Source of the DNA: Alphaproteobacteria bacterium
GTDB taxonomy: Bacteria; Pseudomonadota; Alphaproteobacteria; Caulobacterales; Maricaulaceae
Assembly: GCA_016124665.1 (NCBI GenBank)
Contig: WGNH01000003.1
Span: 62,001-126,000, forward strand
DNA: 64,000 nt
Reading direction: 5' to 3'
The position numbers were made by a program, and so were the translations under genes. The notes below the pieces were generated by a model. It saw nothing but the letters and a program-made list of their open reading frames with translations, searched no databases and had not been told where the DNA came from. The first letter of the stretch is position 1, and every line of letters begins with the position of its first letter. Shown here piece by piece: positions 8,397-17,058 of this stretch.

Positions 8397-8858
8397 AGCC
8401 CGGCCGGTCACAGGATAGCGCCTGTCAGCTTCCTGAACGAAATATCCGATCATCTTGTGCACGGCGCGCTGCTTGTTCGCGCGGATCAGCATGTCCAGAA
8501 CCATGTTATTGAACTGGAAATCCAACTCGAAATCGATTGCCGTCGAGCCATCACTCAGCTCCGACATCTGCCAGACATTGCGTAGGATGTGAAACGGCCC
8601 CTCCACCAGGTTGACTGAAACGCGCAGCGCTGCGGCATCCGCCGTGACGCGCGTCACAAAACGTTCCCGGGCGAATTTGTAGCGGGCGACCGCCTCCGCC
8701 ACGAAAACCAATTGTGATCCGGCAGATTCCCGGCTGAGAATCCGCAACGAGGTCAGGTAGGGAATGAAATCGGGATAGCGTTCAACATCGGAGACGAGCG
8801 CGAATATGTCTGCCGGTGCATGACGCACCCGCAAGCGTTCGGAATGCCGGGAAATCAT
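8370..8858 (-). CDS. COQ10/RatA-like START-domain protein
   Basis: Small SRPBCC/START-fold protein of 162 residues. The pattern (an [23 protein letters not shown] type opening, then [11 protein letters not shown]-like sheets) is that of the mitochondrial COQ10 and bacterial RatA family. Alphaproteobacterial members are thought to bind ubiquinone and help deliver it to the respiratory chain; the RatA toxin name from E. coli is probably misleading here. Its ATG overlaps the lipA stop by 4 bases, so the two form an operon. Function inferred from family and not from active-site residues. Confidence 0.88.
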
Positions 8859-9820
8859 CTGCCGCCGGCGAGCGAAGCGTCACGTGCCGCACGAAGGCGC
8901 ACGAAATCATCGCCGGCATGATAGCTGGAGCGCGTCAGTGGTGTTGCCGAGACCATCAGGAAGCCCTTGGCCCGGGCAATGGTTTCATAGGCCTTGAATT
9001 CCTGCGGTTCGACAAAACGCTGAACCGAAGCATGCTTGCGCGTGGGCTGGAGATACTGGCCAATGGTCAGGAAATCGATTCCGGCCGAGCGCATATCATC
9101 CATCACCTGCATGCCCTCCTCCTTGCTCTCGCCGAGACCGACCATCAGACCGGACTTCGTGAACTGCGACGGATCGCGTTCTTTCACCTGCTCAAGGAGG
9201 CGCAGGGAGTGGTAATAGCGGGCGCCGGGCCGAATAGAGAGATAGAGCCGCGGCACAGTTTCCAGATTGTGATTGAAGACGTCCGGACGGGCATCGATCA
9301 CTGTATTGATTGCCCCGTCCTTACGGAGGAAATCCGGCGTAAGGATTTCAATGGTGGTCCCGGGCGATGCCGCGCGAATGGCCTTGATCACATCGACGAA
9401 ATGTTGCGCACCGCCATCTTCCAGATCATCGCGATCCACTGAGGTGATGACGACGTGTTTGAGCTCCATCTTGACGACCGCGTCGCCGATGCGATTGGCC
9501 TCATCATGATCGACCGGCGACGGAAGGCCGGTTTTCACATTGCAGAACGCGCAGGCGCGGGTGCATGTGTCCCCCAGAATCATGAATGTGGCATGTTTCT
9601 GCGTCCAGCATTCACCGATATTCGGGCATCCGGCTTCCTCGCAGACCGTGATCAGATTGTTATCTTTCACGATATTGCGGGTTTCCGCATACTCGCCACC
9701 GACCGGTGCCCTGACGCGGATCCAGTCCGGCTTGCGCAGGACCGGATTGTCCGGGCGATGCTCCTTTTCCGGATGCCGTGGCCGCGGGGTTTCCGCGAGG
9801 GTGTCGATAAGATTAGCCAT
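8855..9820 (-). CDS. lipA: Lipoyl synthase
   Basis: Radical-SAM enzyme that inserts two sulfurs into protein-bound octanoyl groups to make lipoate. Six cluster ligands are visible: the auxiliary cluster Cys60, Cys65, Cys71 ([12 protein letters not shown]) and the radical-SAM CxxxCxxC at Cys86, Cys90, Cys93 (CTRACAFC). The C-terminal RSSYHAG carries the conserved serine that ligates the auxiliary cluster. 321 residues, normal length. Its substrates include the lipoyl domains of the PDH subunits encoded at 18.7-22.2 kb. The COQ10-like gene follows with a 4-base overlap. Confidence 0.97.
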
Positions 9821-9884: not shown

Positions 9885-11144
9885 CTACACAGAAGTGTCC
9901 GCAGATGTCGCAACCGGGCTACCGCCATTATCGTCCTTACGGCCAAAAGCGGCCAGCATCCAGGACCCAAGGCCGATCCAGGACAGGATCAGCGATGCAA
10001 TCACGGCCAGAGGCGGCAAAATCCAGAGCGCAGCGGACAGGATCAGGACAACGGTCATCCCCAGAAGCCGCATTCCCAAGCCAGGATTGGATTTTCCGGC
10101 GCGATTGAAAATACAGTCGCCGACGGCGATCGCTCCAAGTGGATAGGCCAGCAAGAGAAGGAAAATCCCGAAAACCCACCAGAATGGTATCAGTACAATA
10201 CCTACGACGGAGATGAACAGGAGCACCGTGCCGGCGGTCATCAGCATGATCCAGCCCATCGGAAGCAGGAACAGGCCGATCAGCGGAGCAAGAAGCGGGT
10301 GTTTCCGGAATTTTGCCGACAGACGGGTGACGCCTTTCGGCATCATCACAAGTGCCAACAGGCCCAGCAGAAGCGAAAACGCGACGCCGGATACCGCAAA
10401 GAATTCGGCCGGCGGAACGATATCGAAATCGAAATCAATATCGCTGAACTGGTCGCCGTCCCAATCAAGCTCAATAAGGCGGTATGTGTATTCAAAGCCG
10501 TTCGCCAATGTGGCATCAGGCGAAATGTCAGGCTCGGACGGGCCGAAATATTCAAGACGGCCGGAAATGACGGCTCCGGGCTCGATGGTGAGGCGCTCGG
10601 CCTCGATTTCAACATCGCCGTCTATGCGGCCGGATATAACGACGTCCTGAGCCAGAATCTCGACCGTGTCGAGGAAATGGCCGCGCAGCGTTATCGATTG
10701 ACCGGCCATATCGGCTGGGCCCGTGACGACACTGCCCTCGGCGATTTCCAGCACGCCAGCAGCCGAATCCAGCGATCCGCCGATTGTGCCGGAATACTCG
10801 ACATAGCCCCCGGCAAATTCGGCACTGTCACCGATATCGACTGTCAGCTCGACCGATCCGCCGGCGATTTCGGCATCCCCGCCAACATTCCCAGCGACCG
10901 TAACATTTCCGCCGGCAACGCGGATATCGCCTTCAACCTGGGCATCGATGACGATGCTGCCGCCAAAAACAGCAAGATCTTCGCCGATCCGTCCGGAAAT
11001 TTCCGCAGAGCCGGCGATAACCTTGAGGTCGCCATCGCGGTCAACATCGCGAAGTTCGACATGGCCGCCAAAATGCTGGGCCGATGCGCCCGAGGCGAGC
11101 GTGGCGGCCAGTCCGGCCGCGAGCAGCAGTGAACGTATAAGCAT
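9885..11144 (-). CDS. Exported beta-solenoid (bactofilin-like) protein with C-terminal membrane domain
   Basis: Not a characterised gene. Signal peptide at residues 1-23 ending ASGASAQ, then about 190 residues of 17-residue beta-solenoid repeats with the recurring pattern GxIGGDxxIAGGxVxV (for example VGGDAEIAGGSVEL). The second half (from about residue 235) is a membrane domain of four to six hydrophobic helices joined by short loops, ending in a polar tail. The repeats resemble the polymer-forming bactofilin fold, but here exported. I chose the second ATG (11144) because GGAGGT lies 4 bases before it; the ATG one codon earlier is the alternative. It lies 48 bases after a solenoid lipoprotein gene, so the two likely form an operon. 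The membrane part could anchor a periplasmic scaffold; that is inference. Confidence 0.85.
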   Translation of the reverse strand: MLIRSLLLAAGLAATLASGASAQHFGGHVELRDVDRDGDLKVIAGSAEISGRIGEDLAVFGGSIVIDAQVEGDIRVAGGNVTVAGNVGGDAEIAGGSVELTVDIGDSAEFAGGYVEYSGTIGGSLDSAAGVLEIAEGSVVTGPADMAGQSITLRGHFLDTVEILAQDVVISGRIDGDVEIEAERLTIEPGAVISGRLEYFGPSEPDISPDATLANGFEYTYRLIELDWDGDQFSDIDFDFDIVPPAEFFAVSGVAFSLLLGLLALVMMPKGVTRLSAKFRKHPLLAPLIGLFLLPMGWIMLMTAGTVLLFISVVGIVLIPFWWVFGIFLLLLAYPLGAIAVGDCIFNRAGKSNPGLGMRLLGMTVVLILSAALWILPPLAVIASLILSWIGLGSWMLAAFGRKDDNGGSPVATSADTSV

Positions 11145-11192
11145 CATTACCTCCGTTCGCCCCCAAGCGTAACGAGTGAGTGCAAAGAAAAA

Positions 11193-12071
11193 CTAGCGGT
11201 CAAAGGGCTCCAGAAGGTCGTTACAATCGCGCCCGTCAATCGCCTCGAATGTCACGCCGGATTGCGATGCCCCGGCTTCGAACACCGGAGCCTCTTCGGC
11301 AAAAACCGCCAATTGTCCGGTTATCACCATCTCAGGGCCAATCACGACGCGGCGGGCGCATACTGCACTGCCCTCTCCAATGGCCGCATTGATACGGACT
11401 CGTTGATGAGTGTTGCCTGAAGACCAGCTCCATCCCCGCCGCGAATGGGCAACGGCGATAAGACGGCCATCAACCGGGCCTTCTAATATAACCGAGCTGC
11501 CGGCCAGGCTGGCATTACCGCCGACAGAACCGAAAAGTTCAAGATCGCTGCCAGCCATGGACAGATTGCCGCTGACTTCACTGTCACGGGACACTTCAAT
11601 ATCGCTTCCGGCAATGTCCAGATCCTCGCCGATCCGACCGTCAATCATCACATCGCTGCCGGCAATTGAAAGGCTGCCTTCCGTGGTGCCGGACCAGTTC
11701 ACGTCACTTCCGGCAATATCGATATCGCCCACGGCATTGCCCGACCAATCGACGTCACTGCCGGCGATATTGGCTTCACCGCCAATCGAGCCACCGAATG
11801 AAATATCGGATCCCACAAGGGACATGTCCCCGCCAATATCGGCTGCAACATCAAGATCGGACCCGATAACAGACAGATCACCGCCAATCCGGCCGGTAAT
11901 GGACATGTCACTTCCCATCAGGCTGGCGTCGCCGTCCTGATCAAAATGATGCGCACCATCACGGCCATTGTGATTTTGTGCGTCGACATGGACTGTAGCG
12001 GAAGCGTTATTGCTGCAACCAGCCATGATGAGCGCGCTCGCAGACACGCTTATGGCAAGAAATTTTTTCAT
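11193..12071 (-). CDS. Solenoid-repeat lipoprotein (bactofilin-like), paralogue 1
   Basis: Lipoprotein of 292 residues: signal sequence with lipobox LIMAGC (lipidated Cys19, Ser at +2, so outer-membrane sorting is likely). It carries about nine 17-residue repeats of the form GGDxxxxGSDxxxxxxxI, each with a GSD turn (for example IGEDLDIAGSDIEV). A C-terminal module with AVCARRV ... GQLAV and a final GRDC is shared with two other genes at 14.1 and 14.9 kb. The ATG at 12071 was chosen because the signal peptide starts there; the longer in-frame extension has no signal function. First gene of a two-gene operon with the membrane solenoid protein. Function unknown. Confidence 0.88.
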   Translation of the reverse strand: MKKFLAISVSASALIMAGCSNNASATVHVDAQNHNGRDGAHHFDQDGDASLMGSDMSITGRIGGDLSVIGSDLDVAADIGGDMSLVGSDISFGGSIGGEANIAGSDVDWSGNAVGDIDIAGSDVNWSGTTEGSLSIAGSDVMIDGRIGEDLDIAGSDIEVSRDSEVSGNLSMAGSDLELFGSVGGNASLAGSSVILEGPVDGRLIAVAHSRRGWSWSSGNTHQRVRINAAIGEGSAVCARRVVIGPEMVITGQLAVFAEEAPVFEAGASQSGVTFEAIDGRDCNDLLEPFDR

Positions 12072-12145
12072 GCCCGAAAACTCCAGACTCGATGGACGAA
12101 GAATAAGTCCGTCCTGATCGCTCCCCAGCGGTGATTCCTCTCTAA

Positions 12146-12164
12146 CATATCGAATTTCGATATG
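12146..12164. promoter_or_regulatory. Palindromic operator candidate in divergent promoter region
   Basis: Perfect inverted repeat catatcga-att-tcgatatg in the 250-base gap between the solenoid lipoprotein gene (minus) and the acyl-CoA synthetase gene (plus). A shorter palindrome, ttat-tcg-ataa at 12179-12189, shares the TTCGATA core. The stretch 12140-12195 is much richer in A and T than its surroundings, as expected for a promoter. Likely a dimeric repressor site; the regulator is unknown. Nothing else is seen in this gap. Confidence 0.55.
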
Positions 12165-12321
12165 AAAGAGATTTTTCGTTATTCGATAAATTTTGGCAGT
12201 CCGGATGCTGCGCAAATCGTTCGGAGAAGCGAATTTCGGGCTTTTCAGCGCCCGGCTCACCGCTTAACGTCTGCGTCAATGATATGACAAGCGCGCCAAA
12301 GCGTTACACGGGGAGATATTG

Positions 12322-14085
12322 ATGACCGACCGCAAAACCGCGGACGACAATTCTTTTTCTGATTCCAATGCCAGCGGCCCTGTTATTCCTGCAGCTGAAG
12401 GCCTGGATGAAGCTCGAAAGACCGAGAGCAACCCCGAAGCGTTGACTTCGCCGGAGATCGTACCGGACGATAGTAATGATTTGACCACAGACGGTGACAA
12501 CCCGCCGCCTGTTGATCCGTCATCCTGGCCCCAGATCGAGGGGGAGCCATTCCGTTTATCCCGCGCCCGAAAGTCCGTACTCCAGGCGATGTTGCGGGCG
12601 AAAAACAAGGTCGGGGGCAAGACCGTCACCATTATCGATGCTGACGGGCGCCAGCTGGACTATAATGAAATGCTGCGGGCGTCGTTTGCCTTGGGCTCAG
12701 CTCTCGCAAGGCTGACCGAAAAGGGCGAGAAAATCGCCGTGCTGCTTCCTACAGGTGCCGGTTCGGGGATCGCGTTTTTCGCGCTGAATACGTATGGGCG
12801 CATTCCCGCCATGCTGAATTTCACGGCCGGCGCGAAAGCGATCAAGGCGGCCTGCCGGGCCGCGCAGGCGACAAAAATTGTCACCGCGCACAAATTTATT
12901 GAACTGGGCGGGCTGGAGGAGCTTGAAGGGCATCTCAAGCAGGATCATGAAATGATCTATCTTGAGGATGTCCGCGAAAACATTTCCCTGGGCGACAAGG
13001 TCCGTGCCGTGCTCGGGCCGATCTTCCCGGATCTGGTGGCCACGCGTGTCAGCCCGGACGATACAGCCGTCATCCTGTTCACCTCGGGCACCGAAGGCGA
13101 TCCCAAGGGAGTCGCCCTCAGCCATATGAATCTGGTCGCCAATGTCGAACAGGCCCGGGCGCATGTGGACATCCTGCCAACGGATATTGTCTTCAATTCC
13201 CTGCCGACCTTCCACAGTTTCGGTCTGACAGGCGGATTGCTGCTGCCGCTTTTTGTGGGCATTCCTGCCGTTTTGCACCCCAGTCCGCTGCAAGGTAAAA
13301 CCATAATGGAGCGTGTGCGGAAGACGAAATCCACAGTGCTGTTCGCAACCGACACCTTCCTGAACCAGTATGCGCGGGTGGCAGACAAGGGCGATTTTGA
13401 CTCCCTGCGCTTTGTCGTCTGCGGTGCCGAACGGGTGAAGGATGAAACCCGTACCATGGTGCGGCGCGAATTCGATCTGATGGTGCTGGAAGGATATGGC
13501 GCTACGGAAGCGGCGCCGGTGATCGCCGTCAATCAGCCGCAGCGCAACAAGCCGGGCACGGTCGGCCGCATGATTCCCGGAATGAGGGCAAGGCTGGAAC
13601 CGGTCGAGGGCATCGCTGACGGGGGGCGCCTGCACGTCAAGGGTCCGAATGTCATGCAGGGGTATATTTTCAGCGACCAGCCCGGTGTCATCCATCCGCC
13701 CGAGGATGGCTGGCATGATACCGGCGATATTGTCAGTTTTGACGAGGAAGGCTGTGTGCAGATCCGCGGGCGGCAGAAGCGGTTTGCCAAGATCGGCGGC
13801 GAAATGGTGTCGCTGGCGGTGGTCGAAAATATCGCGACTTCACTGTGGCCAGACTGTCTGCATGCCGCTGTCACCCTGCCCGACGCCCGGAAAGGCGAGC
13901 AGATCGTCATCGTGACAGAATACCCCAATGCCGAGCGTGGTGACATGGTGGCCTTTGCCCGCAGCCACGGAATTGCCGAGCTGGCCATCCCGAAACGGGT
14001 GATCCCGGTTTCCGAGATCCCCGTCCTGGGCACTGGCAAGATCAACTATGTGGCGATCGAAAAACTCGCCAAGGGCGAGGATTAA
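12322..14085 (+). CDS. AMP-forming acyl-CoA / acyl-ACP synthetase (Aas-like)
   Basis: Adenylate-forming ligase that activates a carboxylic acid, probably a fatty acid, with ATP. The P-loop FTSGTEGDPKGVALSH is near residue 253 and the adenylate motif YGATEAAP near residue 391; DTGD and the hinge region follow, and the C-terminal catalytic lysine motif is GTGKINY. The sequence resembles the synthetase half of Aas (2-acylglycerophosphoethanolamine acyltransferase/acyl-ACP synthetase) without an acyltransferase half. The first 70 residues are an unusual acidic, Pro/Ser-rich extension. The ATG is preceded by GGGGAGA. The gene splits two pairs of solenoid genes and its stop overlaps the next one by 3 bases. 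Substrate unknown. Confidence 0.85.
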   Translation: MTDRKTADDNSFSDSNASGPVIPAAEGLDEARKTESNPEALTSPEIVPDDSNDLTTDGDNPPPVDPSSWPQIEGEPFRLSRARKSVLQAMLRAKNKVGGKTVTIIDADGRQLDYNEMLRASFALGSALARLTEKGEKIAVLLPTGAGSGIAFFALNTYGRIPAMLNFTAGAKAIKAACRAAQATKIVTAHKFIELGGLEELEGHLKQDHEMIYLEDVRENISLGDKVRAVLGPIFPDLVATRVSPDDTAVILFTSGTEGDPKGVALSHMNLVANVEQARAHVDILPTDIVFNSLPTFHSFGLTGGLLLPLFVGIPAVLHPSPLQGKTIMERVRKTKSTVLFATDTFLNQYARVADKGDFDSLRFVVCGAERVKDETRTMVRREFDLMVLEGYGATEAAPVIAVNQPQRNKPGTVGRMIPGMRARLEPVEGIADGGRLHVKGPNVMQGYIFSDQPGVIHPPEDGWHDTGDIVSFDEEGCVQIRGRQKRFAKIGGEMVSLAVVENIATSLWPDCLHAAVTLPDARKGEQIVIVTEYPNAERGDMVAFARSHGIAELAIPKRVIPVSEIPVLGTGKINYVAIEKLAKGED

Positions 14086-14819
14086 TCGCCGCGGCAGCTT
14101 TCCCGCTCGCGCAGGGCATAGCTGATATTGGAAGCGTCGACGCCTGCGGCATAGTCCGGTTCATCATCGGCCAGAACCGTCAGCGGGCCATTGACTTCAG
14201 CGCCATTGAGGAAACGGACTTCGTGGGCGCAGATTGTGCCACCGGCGTCAAGAATTCCGCTGATCTCGATCTCGCTGCGATCACGGCGGCGGAATATGCC
14301 TTCACGGTTATTACCCTCGAAATCAATGGCCTGATCCGCGCGGCCGGAAAACTCCATGTCACCAAAACGTACCTGCAGGCCAGACATGGCGTGCCCACCA
14401 AATTCCAGGGCTCCAGCGGATATCTCGACATCGCCGGAAAAGACCGAACCCGAAGATACATCCACCGCGCCGCCAGAAATCTCCGACCGGCCCGCGACCT
14501 GGAGATTGATATCCACGGCCCCGCCGCTGATTTCGGCATTACCGCCAACAGAACCGGAGATTTCCACAGCACCGCCGCTGGCTTCGAGATCTTCACCGAC
14601 TTCGGCATTGATCTCCGTTGCGGCACCGGAAACCTCGAGATCACCACCGAAAGTGCCGGAGACGTCGACCGTGGCCCCGGAGAATTCACCATTTCCAGCG
14701 ACATCGCCGGAATAGTCGACCGTTATGCCGGACATGGAGACGTTCTGGCTCTGCGCCAGAACAGGCGGTGCCAGTAAAACTGCCGCCGACGCGGTCAGCA
14801 AAAAGAGTGATTTAGTCAT
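14082..14819 (-). CDS. Exported solenoid-repeat protein (bactofilin-like), paralogue 2
   Basis: 245 residues with a Sec signal peptide (residues 1-22, cleaved after PPVLA) and no lipobox, so probably soluble in the periplasm or at the surface. The body has 17-residue repeats of the type VGGNAEISGGAVDI. It ends with the same C-terminal module as its two lipoprotein relatives: TICAHEV ... NGPLTVLA ... ESC. It is preceded by GGGAG and lies 78 bases after the lipoprotein gene upstream, so it is probably co-transcribed. The stop overlaps the convergent acyl-CoA synthetase stop. Function unknown. Confidence 0.86.
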   Translation of the reverse strand: MTKSLFLLTASAAVLLAPPVLAQSQNVSMSGITVDYSGDVAGNGEFSGATVDVSGTFGGDLEVSGAATEINAEVGEDLEASGGAVEISGSVGGNAEISGGAVDINLQVAGRSEISGGAVDVSSGSVFSGDVEISAGALEFGGHAMSGLQVRFGDMEFSGRADQAIDFEGNNREGIFRRRDRSEIEISGILDAGGTICAHEVRFLNGAEVNGPLTVLADDEPDYAAGVDASNISYALRERESCRGD

Positions 14820-14897
14820 TTCAAGCTCCCTTCAAGGATTCAAGAGAGCCCCTTCCGGTGCTCACCTTTTTCATTCCGCGATAAAAATCAAGAGGCA

Positions 14898-15572
14898 TCA
14901 GCCACGATTGCGGCGGATATCCTCGCAATCACGCGTGCCCAGAGCTTCAAAGTCAAAGGCACCGTCCCAGTCCGGGCGGTGTTCGGCAATGATGTGCAGC
15001 GGGCCGTTGACCCGGGCATTGCTGCGGAAATCAACATGCCGGGCACAGATATAGCCGCCCTCTTCCAGCGTACCGCTGATGACGACGCGGCCATTGCGGC
15101 CTTCACCACCACCGCCATAAATGCGAACCGGCGCCGCGAAACGGCCCGGCAGGTTGAAACGGGCTCCCATGGCATCGAGTTCCCCGAGCACATCACCGTC
15201 AATCGTAGCGCGGGCTCCCATGATTTCCATGCGGCCGCCGAAACGCCCATTCAGATACATGGTTGCTCCGGCAATCTCGGTGTCACCGGCCACGCTTCCG
15301 GTGAAGCGTATCCGCGCGCCTTCAATGTTCAGATTGCCGCCCACACGCGCATCGGAAACGACATTGGCACCGGCGAGCGACAGGTCTCGATCTATATTGC
15401 CGCCGGCATCGACAAACATGCCGGAATAGTCAGCACTGCCTGTCGAATCGACGTCGCCCGCAGCCACCAGACCGGCCCGTTCGATCGAGCGGTTATCGGC
15501 CGGACCGCGCGCTGAATAGCTGCATCCTGCCAATGCGGTGGCTGCCGCCGTGATCATCAGTATCGCTCTCAT
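14898..15572 (-). CDS. Solenoid-repeat lipoprotein (bactofilin-like), paralogue 3
   Basis: Lipoprotein of 224 residues with lipobox ALAGC (Cys17, Ser at +2). About six repeats of the solenoid type (VGGNLNIEGARIRF, FGGRMEIMGARATI) carry GAR or GAN turns instead of GSD or GGA. The C-terminal module YICARHV ... NGPLHIIAE ... TRDC aligns closely with paralogues 1 and 2, with both cysteines conserved. The ATG at 15572 has GGGAG 11 bases upstream; a GTG one codon earlier is possible. It heads the second solenoid gene pair. Function unknown. Confidence 0.86.
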   Translation of the reverse strand: MRAILMITAAATALAGCSYSARGPADNRSIERAGLVAAGDVDSTGSADYSGMFVDAGGNIDRDLSLAGANVVSDARVGGNLNIEGARIRFTGSVAGDTEIAGATMYLNGRFGGRMEIMGARATIDGDVLGELDAMGARFNLPGRFAAPVRIYGGGGEGRNGRVVISGTLEEGGYICARHVDFRSNARVNGPLHIIAEHRPDWDGAFDFEALGTRDCEDIRRNRG

Positions 15573-15645: not shown

Positions 15646-17058
15646 CTAGATATGCAGAACCCGGTCATAGGCATCGAGCACGCTCTCATGCATCATCTCC
15701 GAGAGCGTCGGGTGCGGGAAGATGGCGTGCATCAATTCCTGCTCGGTGGTCTCGAGTACCTTGCCGACCATGAAGCCCTGTATGAGCTCGGTGACTTCGG
15801 CCCCGACCATGTGGGCGCCCAGCAACTCACCGGTTTTGGCGTCGAACACGGTCTTGATCAGCCCCTGATCCTCGCCCAGGGCAATTGCCTTGCCATTGCC
15901 GACAAAGGGGAAGCGGCCGACCTTCACCTCGTGTCCGGCCTCTTTCGCCTTGGCCTCGGTCAGACCGACGGAGGCGATTTGCGGATGGCAATAGGTGCAG
16001 CCGGGTATGTTGGACGTATCCATCGCGTGCGGATTTTTCCCGGCGATCTTCTCGACGCAGATAACGCCTTCATGGCTGGCCTTGTGTGCCAGCCAGGGCG
16101 GGCCGGCGACATCACCGATGGCGTAGAGGCCTTTGACATTGGTCGCACCATAAGCGCCGATGACGATATGCCCGCGCTCGACCTTCACGCCGAGATCCTC
16201 GAGGCCGAGATTTTCGACATTACCGGTGATTCCGATGGCGAGGATGACTTTCTCGACCTCGATTGTCTGGCTCTTGCCGTCCTTTGTCTTGATCGTGGCC
16301 TTGACCGACTTTGCGCCCTTGTCGAGTTTTTCGACCTGCGCGCCGGTGATGAGCTTCATCCCCTGCTTCTTGAACTGCTTGGCGGCGAAGGCGGAGATTT
16401 CCTCATCCTCGACCGGCAGGACGCGGTCCATCATCTCGACGACGGTTACATCCGCGCCCATGGTCTTGTAGAAGCTGGCGAACTCGATGCCGATCGCGCC
16501 CGATCCGATGACGAGGAGAGATTTCGGCATCTCCTCCGGCACCATGGCTTCGCGATAGGTCCAGATCTGCTTGCCGTCCGGCTCGAGGCCGGCCTGCGGC
16601 ACGGTGCGGGCGCGGGCGCCGGTGGCGAGGATGACGTTTTTGGCCTCGTAGCCCGTATCTTTCTTGTCCTTGCCGGTCACGATGACTTTCGGTGCCGCGC
16701 TGCCCTTTTCCAGGCGCGCTGTTCCCTCGATCACCGTGATCTTGTTCTTTTTCATCAACATGCCGACACCGCCCGACAGCCGCCCCGAGACCTTCCGAGA
16801 GCGCTCGACCACCTTCCTGATGTCAAAGGAGATGTCCTTGGCCGACAGGCCGAACTCGTCCGCGCGGTGCATCAGATGATAGATCTCGGAGGTCCTCAGC
16901 AGCGCCTTGGTCGGAATGCAGCCCCAGTTGAGACAGATCCCGCCGAGCTGGTCGCGTTCGACAATGGCGGTCTTCAAGCCGAGTTGCGCGGCGCGGATGG
17001 CGGTCACATATCCGCCCGGACCACTGCCAATCACGATGAGGTCATATTGCTCGGCCAT
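15646..17058 (-). CDS. lpdA: Dihydrolipoyl dehydrogenase (E3)
   Basis: FAD flavoprotein that reoxidises dihydrolipoyl groups of PDH and related complexes with NAD. FAD-binding GSGPGGY (residues 11-17), redox-active disulfide Cys42/Cys47 (GGICLNWGCIPTK), NAD-binding GSGAIGIEFAS, and the catalytic HPTLSE at the C-terminus (His449). 470 residues, normal length. It is divergent from the dehalogenase gene and lies about 1.7 kb from pdhC on the same strand, separated from it by the dehalogenase and cupin genes. Confidence 0.97.
   Translation of the reverse strand: MAEQYDLIVIGSGPGGYVTAIRAAQLGLKTAIVERDQLGGICLNWGCIPTKALLRTSEIYHLMHRADEFGLSAKDISFDIRKVVERSRKVSGRLSGGVGMLMKKNKITVIEGTARLEKGSAAPKVIVTGKDKKDTGYEAKNVILATGARARTVPQAGLEPDGKQIWTYREAMVPEEMPKSLLVIGSGAIGIEFASFYKTMGADVTVVEMMDRVLPVEDEEISAFAAKQFKKQGMKLITGAQVEKLDKGAKSVKATIKTKDGKSQTIEVEKVILAIGITGNVENLGLEDLGVKVERGHIVIGAYGATNVKGLYAIGDVAGPPWLAHKASHEGVICVEKIAGKNPHAMDTSNIPGCTYCHPQIASVGLTEAKAKEAGHEVKVGRFPFVGNGKAIALGEDQGLIKTVFDAKTGELLGAHMVGAEVTELIQGFMVGKVLETTEQELMHAIFPHPTLSEMMHESVLDAYDRVLHI

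Follow-up and report, generated by a model that had tools for sequence, protein, structure and literature searches.

Four predicted exported bactofilin-like β-solenoid proteins clustered in an alphaproteobacterial genome

A 64,000-nucleotide stretch of an alphaproteobacterial genome (the window in what follows; G000:C35:62001-126000, G000 being the label of the source genome, which comprises 2.7 Mb in 46 contigs) holds four clustered genes, here named A, B, C and D, whose products consist largely of 17-residue repeats and bear signs of export. All four are confirmed as genuine genes, and the set points to an envelope scaffold or envelope-guarding system, as yet undescribed, in some genera of one family. 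We propose, tentatively and with somewhat less than even confidence, that A–D are exported bactofilin-like β-solenoids that work together as one structural envelope module, B and A being under a membrane-linked regulator. Bactofilins are treated as a cytoplasmic cytoskeleton, and exported relatives in inner-membrane, soluble and lipoprotein form would extend their fold to the periplasm. The set would also give a handle on how these bacteria, which are often prosthecate, shape or guard their envelope.

Repeats, fold and export signs

The initial annotation described the four products as solenoids of 17-residue repeats, and their periodicity bears this out. Over lags of 5–40, with 2,000 residue shuffles per protein, lag 17 gives the highest hydrophobicity autocorrelation in each of them (A 0.40, B 0.45, C 0.63 and D 0.52), a value reached by 0 of the 2,000 shuffles in every case. 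Autocorrelation of residue identity peaks at lag 17 in A, B and C and at lag 34 in D. Two controls are flat: part of the acyl-ACP synthetase encoded next door (p 0.38) and the membrane part of A itself (p 0.92). The source genome also encodes a separate canonical, cytoplasmic bactofilin, for which the same test gives a top lag of 32 (p 0.003), not 17. BLAST from C retrieves D (3e-22), A (2e-16) and B (5e-13), scores that are liable to inflation by the repeats. Ratios of non-synonymous to synonymous substitution rates (dN/dS) against two congeners (A, 0.046 and 0.169; B, 0.131 and 0.096; C, 0.055 and 0.099; D, 0.091 and 0.161), of which those against genome G007 are rough because some dS values lie above 1, indicate that all four genes are under purifying selection.

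Structure prediction with AlphaFold agrees with the repeats, and C and A are β-solenoids in their predicted models. The model of C (17 family rows) has a mean predicted local distance difference test (pLDDT) score of 88, rising to 95–98 over residues 31–170, and that of A (19 family rows) a mean of 80, with 84–96 over residues 31–220; in A the solenoid is followed by the helices of a membrane domain (Table 1). Long secreted β-helices mostly fit both models at about 2.4–4.5 Å, and LpxD and GlmU, which are left-handed helices, fit at 10–11.5 Å, so that the models are read as right-handed. Residues 115–221 of A superpose in VIA-align on the Thermus thermophilus bactofilin 6rib_A with a Z score of 10.2 and a root-mean-square deviation of 1.6 Å (96 of 101 residues aligned), a pair that Foldseek lists with E 2.8 and a TM score by target of 0.57. 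Foldseek itself returned no match at E ≤ 0.001 in the Protein Data Bank (PDB) for either model, and VIA-align, which re-scored the Foldseek candidates, cannot reveal folds that Foldseek missed.

Family searches give a graded picture. A passes the Pfam bactofilin model PF04519 (E 5.8e-7, 30.1 bits, cut-off 27.9), B (21.8 bits) and D (19.4 bits) fall below the cut-off, and of 17 C/D-type rows, counting the window proteins, 11 match at E ≤ 0.1. Against PDB sequences the profile of A ranks bactofilins top (6ria 0.0032, 2n3d 0.028), and a search with the single sequence P0001 finds only LptH (4uu4, 0.41) and a bactofilin (0.85); an NCBIfam search returned nothing for A. The description of all four as bactofilin-like is borne out by the Pfam cut-off for A alone; B and D are sub-threshold, and C has no bactofilin match, as weighed below.

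All four proteins are apparently exported, in three predicted topologies: two lipoproteins, one soluble protein and one polytopic fusion. This agrees with the initial annotation, and the signs, which were assessed by visual inspection and with a simple motif, not with a signal predictor, recur in orthologs. The lipobox motif is found in 10 of 14 B relatives (the four others being over-long or truncated frames), 6 of 7 D relatives and 3 of 13 C relatives; the lipoboxes of B and D have serine at +2, and the signal of C looks cleavable. Residue A23 of the A-x-A site of A is invariant in alignments of 15 and of 19 A rows. Near the C terminus of B, C and D relatives stands [IVL]-C, mostly after GG, with a second cysteine 39–45 residues further on, at the end of the protein. 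This pair is kept in all C rows (13 of 13), all D rows (7 of 7) and 12 of 14 B rows, the exceptions being the two truncated ones, and fits a disulphide formed outside the cytoplasm. The loops of A at residues ~269–285 and ~344–360, around PKGVTRLSAKFRKHP and FNRAGK...R, are positive as read from sequence and model; given five helices, they would lie opposite the solenoid across the membrane, which fits the positive-inside rule and a periplasmic solenoid.

The cassette and its wider kin

Among 119 relatives, own genome included, the profile of A matches 33 at E ≤ 1e-10. A proper (E < 1e-100) accounts for 29 of these, one copy being cut by a contig end, and the other four matches are distant; its seven genera all belong to the genome's own family, and we take them to form the one family Maricaulaceae. 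Seventeen relatives from seven genera, that is, all D-matching genomes except the own, were fetched. A is present in every one of them with lpd beside the set, and lipA lies within the fetched stretch in 13. B is found in 15 of the 17 (missing in two, reduced to its ends in two), as are C and/or D (both missing in two). All seven fetched genera have the B–A tandem in at least some of their genomes (15 of 17 in total, two with truncated B). The set thus varies in membership, yet its members stay together beside lpd. The closest named relative found is Hyphobacterium indicum, whose A is 97% identical; other named A loci come from Hyphobacterium, Maricaulis, Glycocaulis, Oceanicaulis and Marinicauda and from records titled Maricaulaceae or Alphaproteobacteria, and these named loci, many of them from the same genomes as the fetched set, agree on the cassette pattern.

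As a side observation on B, the gene has seemingly lost its solenoid in two relatives while keeping the start with signal and lipobox and the cysteine-bearing end (L048:7186-7668 in G011; L046:5927-6271 in G006). The loss apparently happened twice; the assembly of G006 is fragmented, that of G011 is not.

Beyond these relatives, the membrane domain of A has matches in 13 of 385 genomes of the class and 4 of 299 drawn from the phylum, and the C/D profile in 37 of 385 genomes of the class (own included in each count). Thirty loci were returned, and of the 29 examined, 24 combine a solenoid with a polytopic C terminus, as in A, according to a crude hydropathy script; in the chosen frame, 14 of these 24 have a hydrophobic stretch at the N terminus. 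The cysteine end motif occurs in none of the 29 loci scanned. Since the layout of A recurs in the sampled Alphaproteobacteria, its surprise is smaller than first stated.

A tree places A and the outgroups on one side and B, C and D on the other (100/98). Within the latter, C and seven of eight D rows are sisters (96/91) and B is not one clade; the G016 gene labelled D by BLAST (D_L050) groups with B, on a long branch. The input consisted of short, repetitive stretches that a script had cut, with the cysteine motif as anchor for B, C and D and sequence position as guide for A and the outgroups. Rows lacking the motif or shorter than 120 residues were dropped (13 of 15 B rows kept), the A set excludes L046, and the outgroup comprises 8 of 18 loci. 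Rows of A and the outgroups include the linker and some of the membrane part, and this alone could contribute to the separation of A. On this tree A looks like the old, widespread part of the set, to which B–D would have been added by family-specific growth.

In the window the four genes do lie within one region, as the initial annotation had it, and they form two units (Table 1): the cluster is not a single operon, the plus-strand acyl-ACP synthetase gene splitting B–A from D–C. The best NCBIfam model for this enzyme is PRK06814.1 (687 bits, below the cut-off of 1349), and its gene lies within the cassette in 2 of the 7 fetched genera, namely the window's genus and g9, and outside it in the remaining five. 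For B the longest possible frame would begin at 12260; the start at ATG 12071 is preferred as most likely because signal and lipobox follow it, and because the longer frame would cross the operator described below. The flanking genes are presumably lpd and lipA, names that we supply from general knowledge and not from a family search.

Table 1. Features of the solenoid locus, in window positions
Feature	Position	Strand	Description
Gene A	9885..11147	-	420 residues; signal peptide, β-solenoid and polytopic membrane domain
A signal peptide, residues 1-23	11079..11147	-	ends ASA before QH; judged by eye
A β-solenoid, residues 25-222	10482..11075	-	AlphaFold model
A membrane domain, residues 247-405	9933..10409	-	~5 transmembrane helices; model helices and alignment
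Gene B	11193..12071	-	292 residues; predicted lipoprotein solenoid; tandem with A; lipobox LIMAGC-SN
Operator-like palindrome ATATCGAAATTCGATAT	12147..12163	-	upstream of B–A; 0 mismatches
Acyl-ACP synthetase (Aas C-terminal type)	12319..14085	+	between B–A and D–C; outside the set as counted
Gene C	14082..14819	-	245 residues; signal peptide; predicted soluble solenoid
Gene D	14898..15572	-	224 residues from ATG; predicted lipoprotein solenoid; lipobox ALAGC-SY; start in the open-reading-frame list is GTG 15575
lpd (dihydrolipoamide dehydrogenase)	15646..17058	-	conserved cassette flank
lipA (lipoyl synthase)	8855..9820	-	cassette flank

An operator-like palindrome and a putative regulon

A palindrome upstream of B–A, newly found in this analysis, recurs before an Imm_superinfect gene; a further copy, which carries one mismatch, separates a Ham1 gene from an operon of small peptide, DUF2975 and HTH_26 genes. 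It is the only exact copy in the window, where two matches with up to three mismatches compare with 0.17 expected; the second, at three mismatches, lies inside A (11046-11062). Among 18 related named loci, 15 have the core TATCGANNNTCGATA without mismatch and three with one; it is doubled in many, and it precedes A in L068, L075 and L076, the three named loci that lack a B match. In 10 of 11 genomes exact copies of the core are confined to two loci, and the reversed controls of all 11 contain 0. At the second of these places the same small frame of ~60 residues adjoins in 10 of 10 genomes; its copy in the source genome (G000:C31:68365-68600; L143, L159) is an Imm_superinfect membrane protein (Pfam PF14373, 2.6e-19), an assignment made for this copy.

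Allowing one mismatch adds a third conserved place in 4 of 4 genomes, with 0–2 sites in the reversed control (1 in the own genome, 2 in G031). It lies 129–157 bases before a gene for a hydrophobic peptide of 37–40 residues, followed by DUF2975 (315–366 bases from the site) and then HTH_26; in the source genome the DUF2975–HTH_26 pair stands at G000:C14:82100-83200 (L170). The HTH_26 protein is 86–98% identical across four genomes of three genera, DUF2975 only 45–67% between genera. Among the genomes listed in a wider run, the A-bearing G020, G069 and G086 also have the third place; since reversed controls range over 0–11 in that run, one-mismatch sites alone are weak evidence. From its position beside the third site, the HTH_26 protein would be the candidate to bind the palindrome, and B and A look co-regulated with membrane proteins. 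The operator would in this way tie a barely studied DUF2975/HTH_26 pair to candidate targets, making both testable.

Several further observations concern the palindrome and its surroundings. A weaker half palindrome, TTATCGAATAACGAAA (minus strand, 12174-12190), stands directly upstream of the main operator; comparable stretches occur in related loci, and it may be a second binding site. The hydrophobic peptide between palindrome and DUF2975 begins MVRSEN... or MVRPEN... in all four genomes (site +129 to +250 in L170; also L169, L171 and L174). In G027, which lacks A, an exact palindrome precedes a Peptidase_S49 (SppA-like) gene (G027:C14:38254, L206), and another lies near a small frame. A one-mismatch site at G000:C36:2107 was set aside as chance, being inside a coding frame. 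PadR was rejected as the regulator: it has no match in the own genome and a single match in each of G007, G019 and G031, away from the palindromes, and the conserved third site adjoins DUF2975/HTH_26 instead.

The proposed module, its alternatives and known systems

The proposal rests on computed results: the genes, their repeats and mutual similarity, the fold of A and C, the export signs, the conserved cassette and the operator with its three places. A–D would form one solenoid family acting jointly, without enzymatic activity. A would be anchored in the inner membrane and extend its solenoid into the periplasm, C would be free in the periplasm, and B and D would be lipoproteins, probably of the outer membrane, in keeping with the E. 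coli rule that serine at +2 directs to that membrane. Bactofilins assemble without nucleotide into non-polar filaments, and the solenoids may likewise meet through their ends or sides, contacts that could tie or brace the membranes or the wall. The DUF2975/HTH_26 regulator would control B–A, the small membrane gene of Imm_superinfect type and its own operon; sharing a regulator with genes for membrane proteins would suggest that the module answers some membrane state. A bolder version, which we regard as unlikely, would have a bactofilin-type periplasmic skeleton anchored in both membranes (A inner, B and D outer, C between), assembled end to end and made rigid by ends that disulphides cap, with a DUF2975/HTH_26 regulon of its own that includes small membrane proteins.

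A number of results weigh against a joint bactofilin-like module. Concerning the fold, structure prediction covers only C and A; Pfam lists no bactofilin match for C, whose only hits, to Phage_spike and DUF5649, stay below threshold; the C/D profile finds no bactofilin among PDB sequences; the best structural match of C is the adhesin β-helix EtpA (Z 19.2, 2.5 Å over 210 residues); and for A longer adhesin β-helices reach higher Z scores than the bactofilin (2odl, 17.7, 2.9 Å over 204). Concerning the set, A proper is not found in most sampled genera of the family, and the check for the same genes in relatives, which places the cassette beside lpd throughout, finds all four intact only in the own genome and in 3 of the 17 fetched (G003, G005, there on two contigs, and G007). 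In four of four outgroup stretches of 11–12 kb the periodicity script detects no second solenoid gene beside the A-like protein, so that A need not have partners. Concerning the regulon, no operator is seen before D–C, and G016 has A and B and no exact palindrome. The third place lies 25–46 bases from the start of the divergent Ham1-like gene and 315–366 from DUF2975, and may serve Ham1 instead; the operator before B–A is untouched by this. Of nine A-lacking genomes listed, a site upstream of DUF2975 is present in three (G010, G027 and G105) and absent from six; DUF2975 itself occurs in 101 of 119 relatives, whether or not they carry A, so its co-occurrence with A says little. Finally, the compared genomes are kin, and their shared operator places are not independent events.

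The main alternative, rather unlikely in our estimate, is an envelope stress-sensing module like the Toastrack proteins of PSP/Lia systems, in which solenoids dock and relay a membrane signal and form no skeleton. Toastrack domains (DUF2807 and others) are also right-handed β-helices tied to membrane domains and regulators, and in some Alphaproteobacteria multiple Toastrack proteins replace PspC, as stated in the parts of PMC11237479 consulted. DUF2807 weakly matches 3 of 17 C/D rows (best 0.0022), and signalling fits a small regulon that includes membrane proteins. However, the same source, in those parts, argues that Toastrack is intracellular, whereas A–D carry export signs; no PspC, PspA or LiaF domain occurs in A–D or in the regulon genes, to which the scan was limited; and the regulator here would be HTH_26 with DUF2975, the latter absent from the main text of PMC11237479. 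It is unlikely, too, that A–D are tandem paralogs kept together by descent that function individually, whether in binding at the surface or in the periplasm or as adhesin-like β-helices. B, C and D do come and go between genera, D–C is separated from B–A by an opposite-strand gene in the window, and the best structural matches of C include the adhesin and an antifreeze protein, with no bactofilin chain among those listed. Such a reading is at odds with the recurrence of the B–A tandem across the fetched genera, with the C-terminal module and cysteine pair shared by B–D, and with the bactofilin-like stretch of A.

We give little credence to the neighbouring acyl-ACP synthetase supplying an Lpt-like bridge that carries lipid or lipoprotein across the periplasm. 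Inner-membrane, soluble and lipoprotein parts are all present, with the Aas-type gene between them, but that gene belongs to the cassette in so few genera, a closed β-helix would offer no known lipid groove, and the only Lpt match (4uu4) is not significant. It is more improbable still that A–D are cytoplasmic bactofilins with misread N termini. Bactofilins are normally cytoplasmic, and N-terminal transmembrane helices are given for ~3.2% of them in the part of PMC12448750 consulted; the usual description is of cytoplasmic proteins with short disordered tails and no export signal. A–D depart from it: their orthologs likewise have the signals, lipoboxes and A-x-A site, the cysteine pair is conserved, the inter-helix loops of A are positive opposite the solenoid, and the genome has its separate canonical bactofilin.

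The initial annotation knew of no described system of this composition. No exported bactofilin set was found in the open-licence papers to which the literature search was limited, and to that extent the claim stands; it is narrowed by the recurrence of the layout of A in other Alphaproteobacteria and by two near precedents, Toastrack and halofilin B. The uncharacterized alphaproteobacterial solenoid-polytopic proteins share the layout of A and its side of the tree, and differ from the set in having no solenoid neighbours (four stretches) and no cysteine end motif (29 loci). Halofilin B of Haloferax volcanii is likened to the set by description only: it belongs to the bactofilin family and affects shape, and differs in being archaeal; a halofilin study in PNAS in 2024 reportedly places it at the outer cell surface. 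A review, seen in part and among PMC12448750, PMC12364344, PMC12186497, PMC11985538 and PMC7146069, gives halofilin B a role in shape and negative curvature. Besides the likeness and the intracellular location discussed above, Toastrack proteins (DUF4097/DUF2154/DUF2807) differ by a special N-terminal region and by other regulators, according to the parts of PMC11237479 consulted, and the Pfam models DUF4097, DUF2154 and DUF2807 match none of A–D at E ≤ 1. Closest in fold are the bactofilins (PF04519; BacA 2N3D, Thermus 6RIA/6RIB), whose solenoid is shared and among which A is placed by its Pfam score and its superposition on 6rib; A–D are set apart from them by export signs, longer solenoids, polytopic or lipid anchors and, in B–D, a cysteine-bearing end module.

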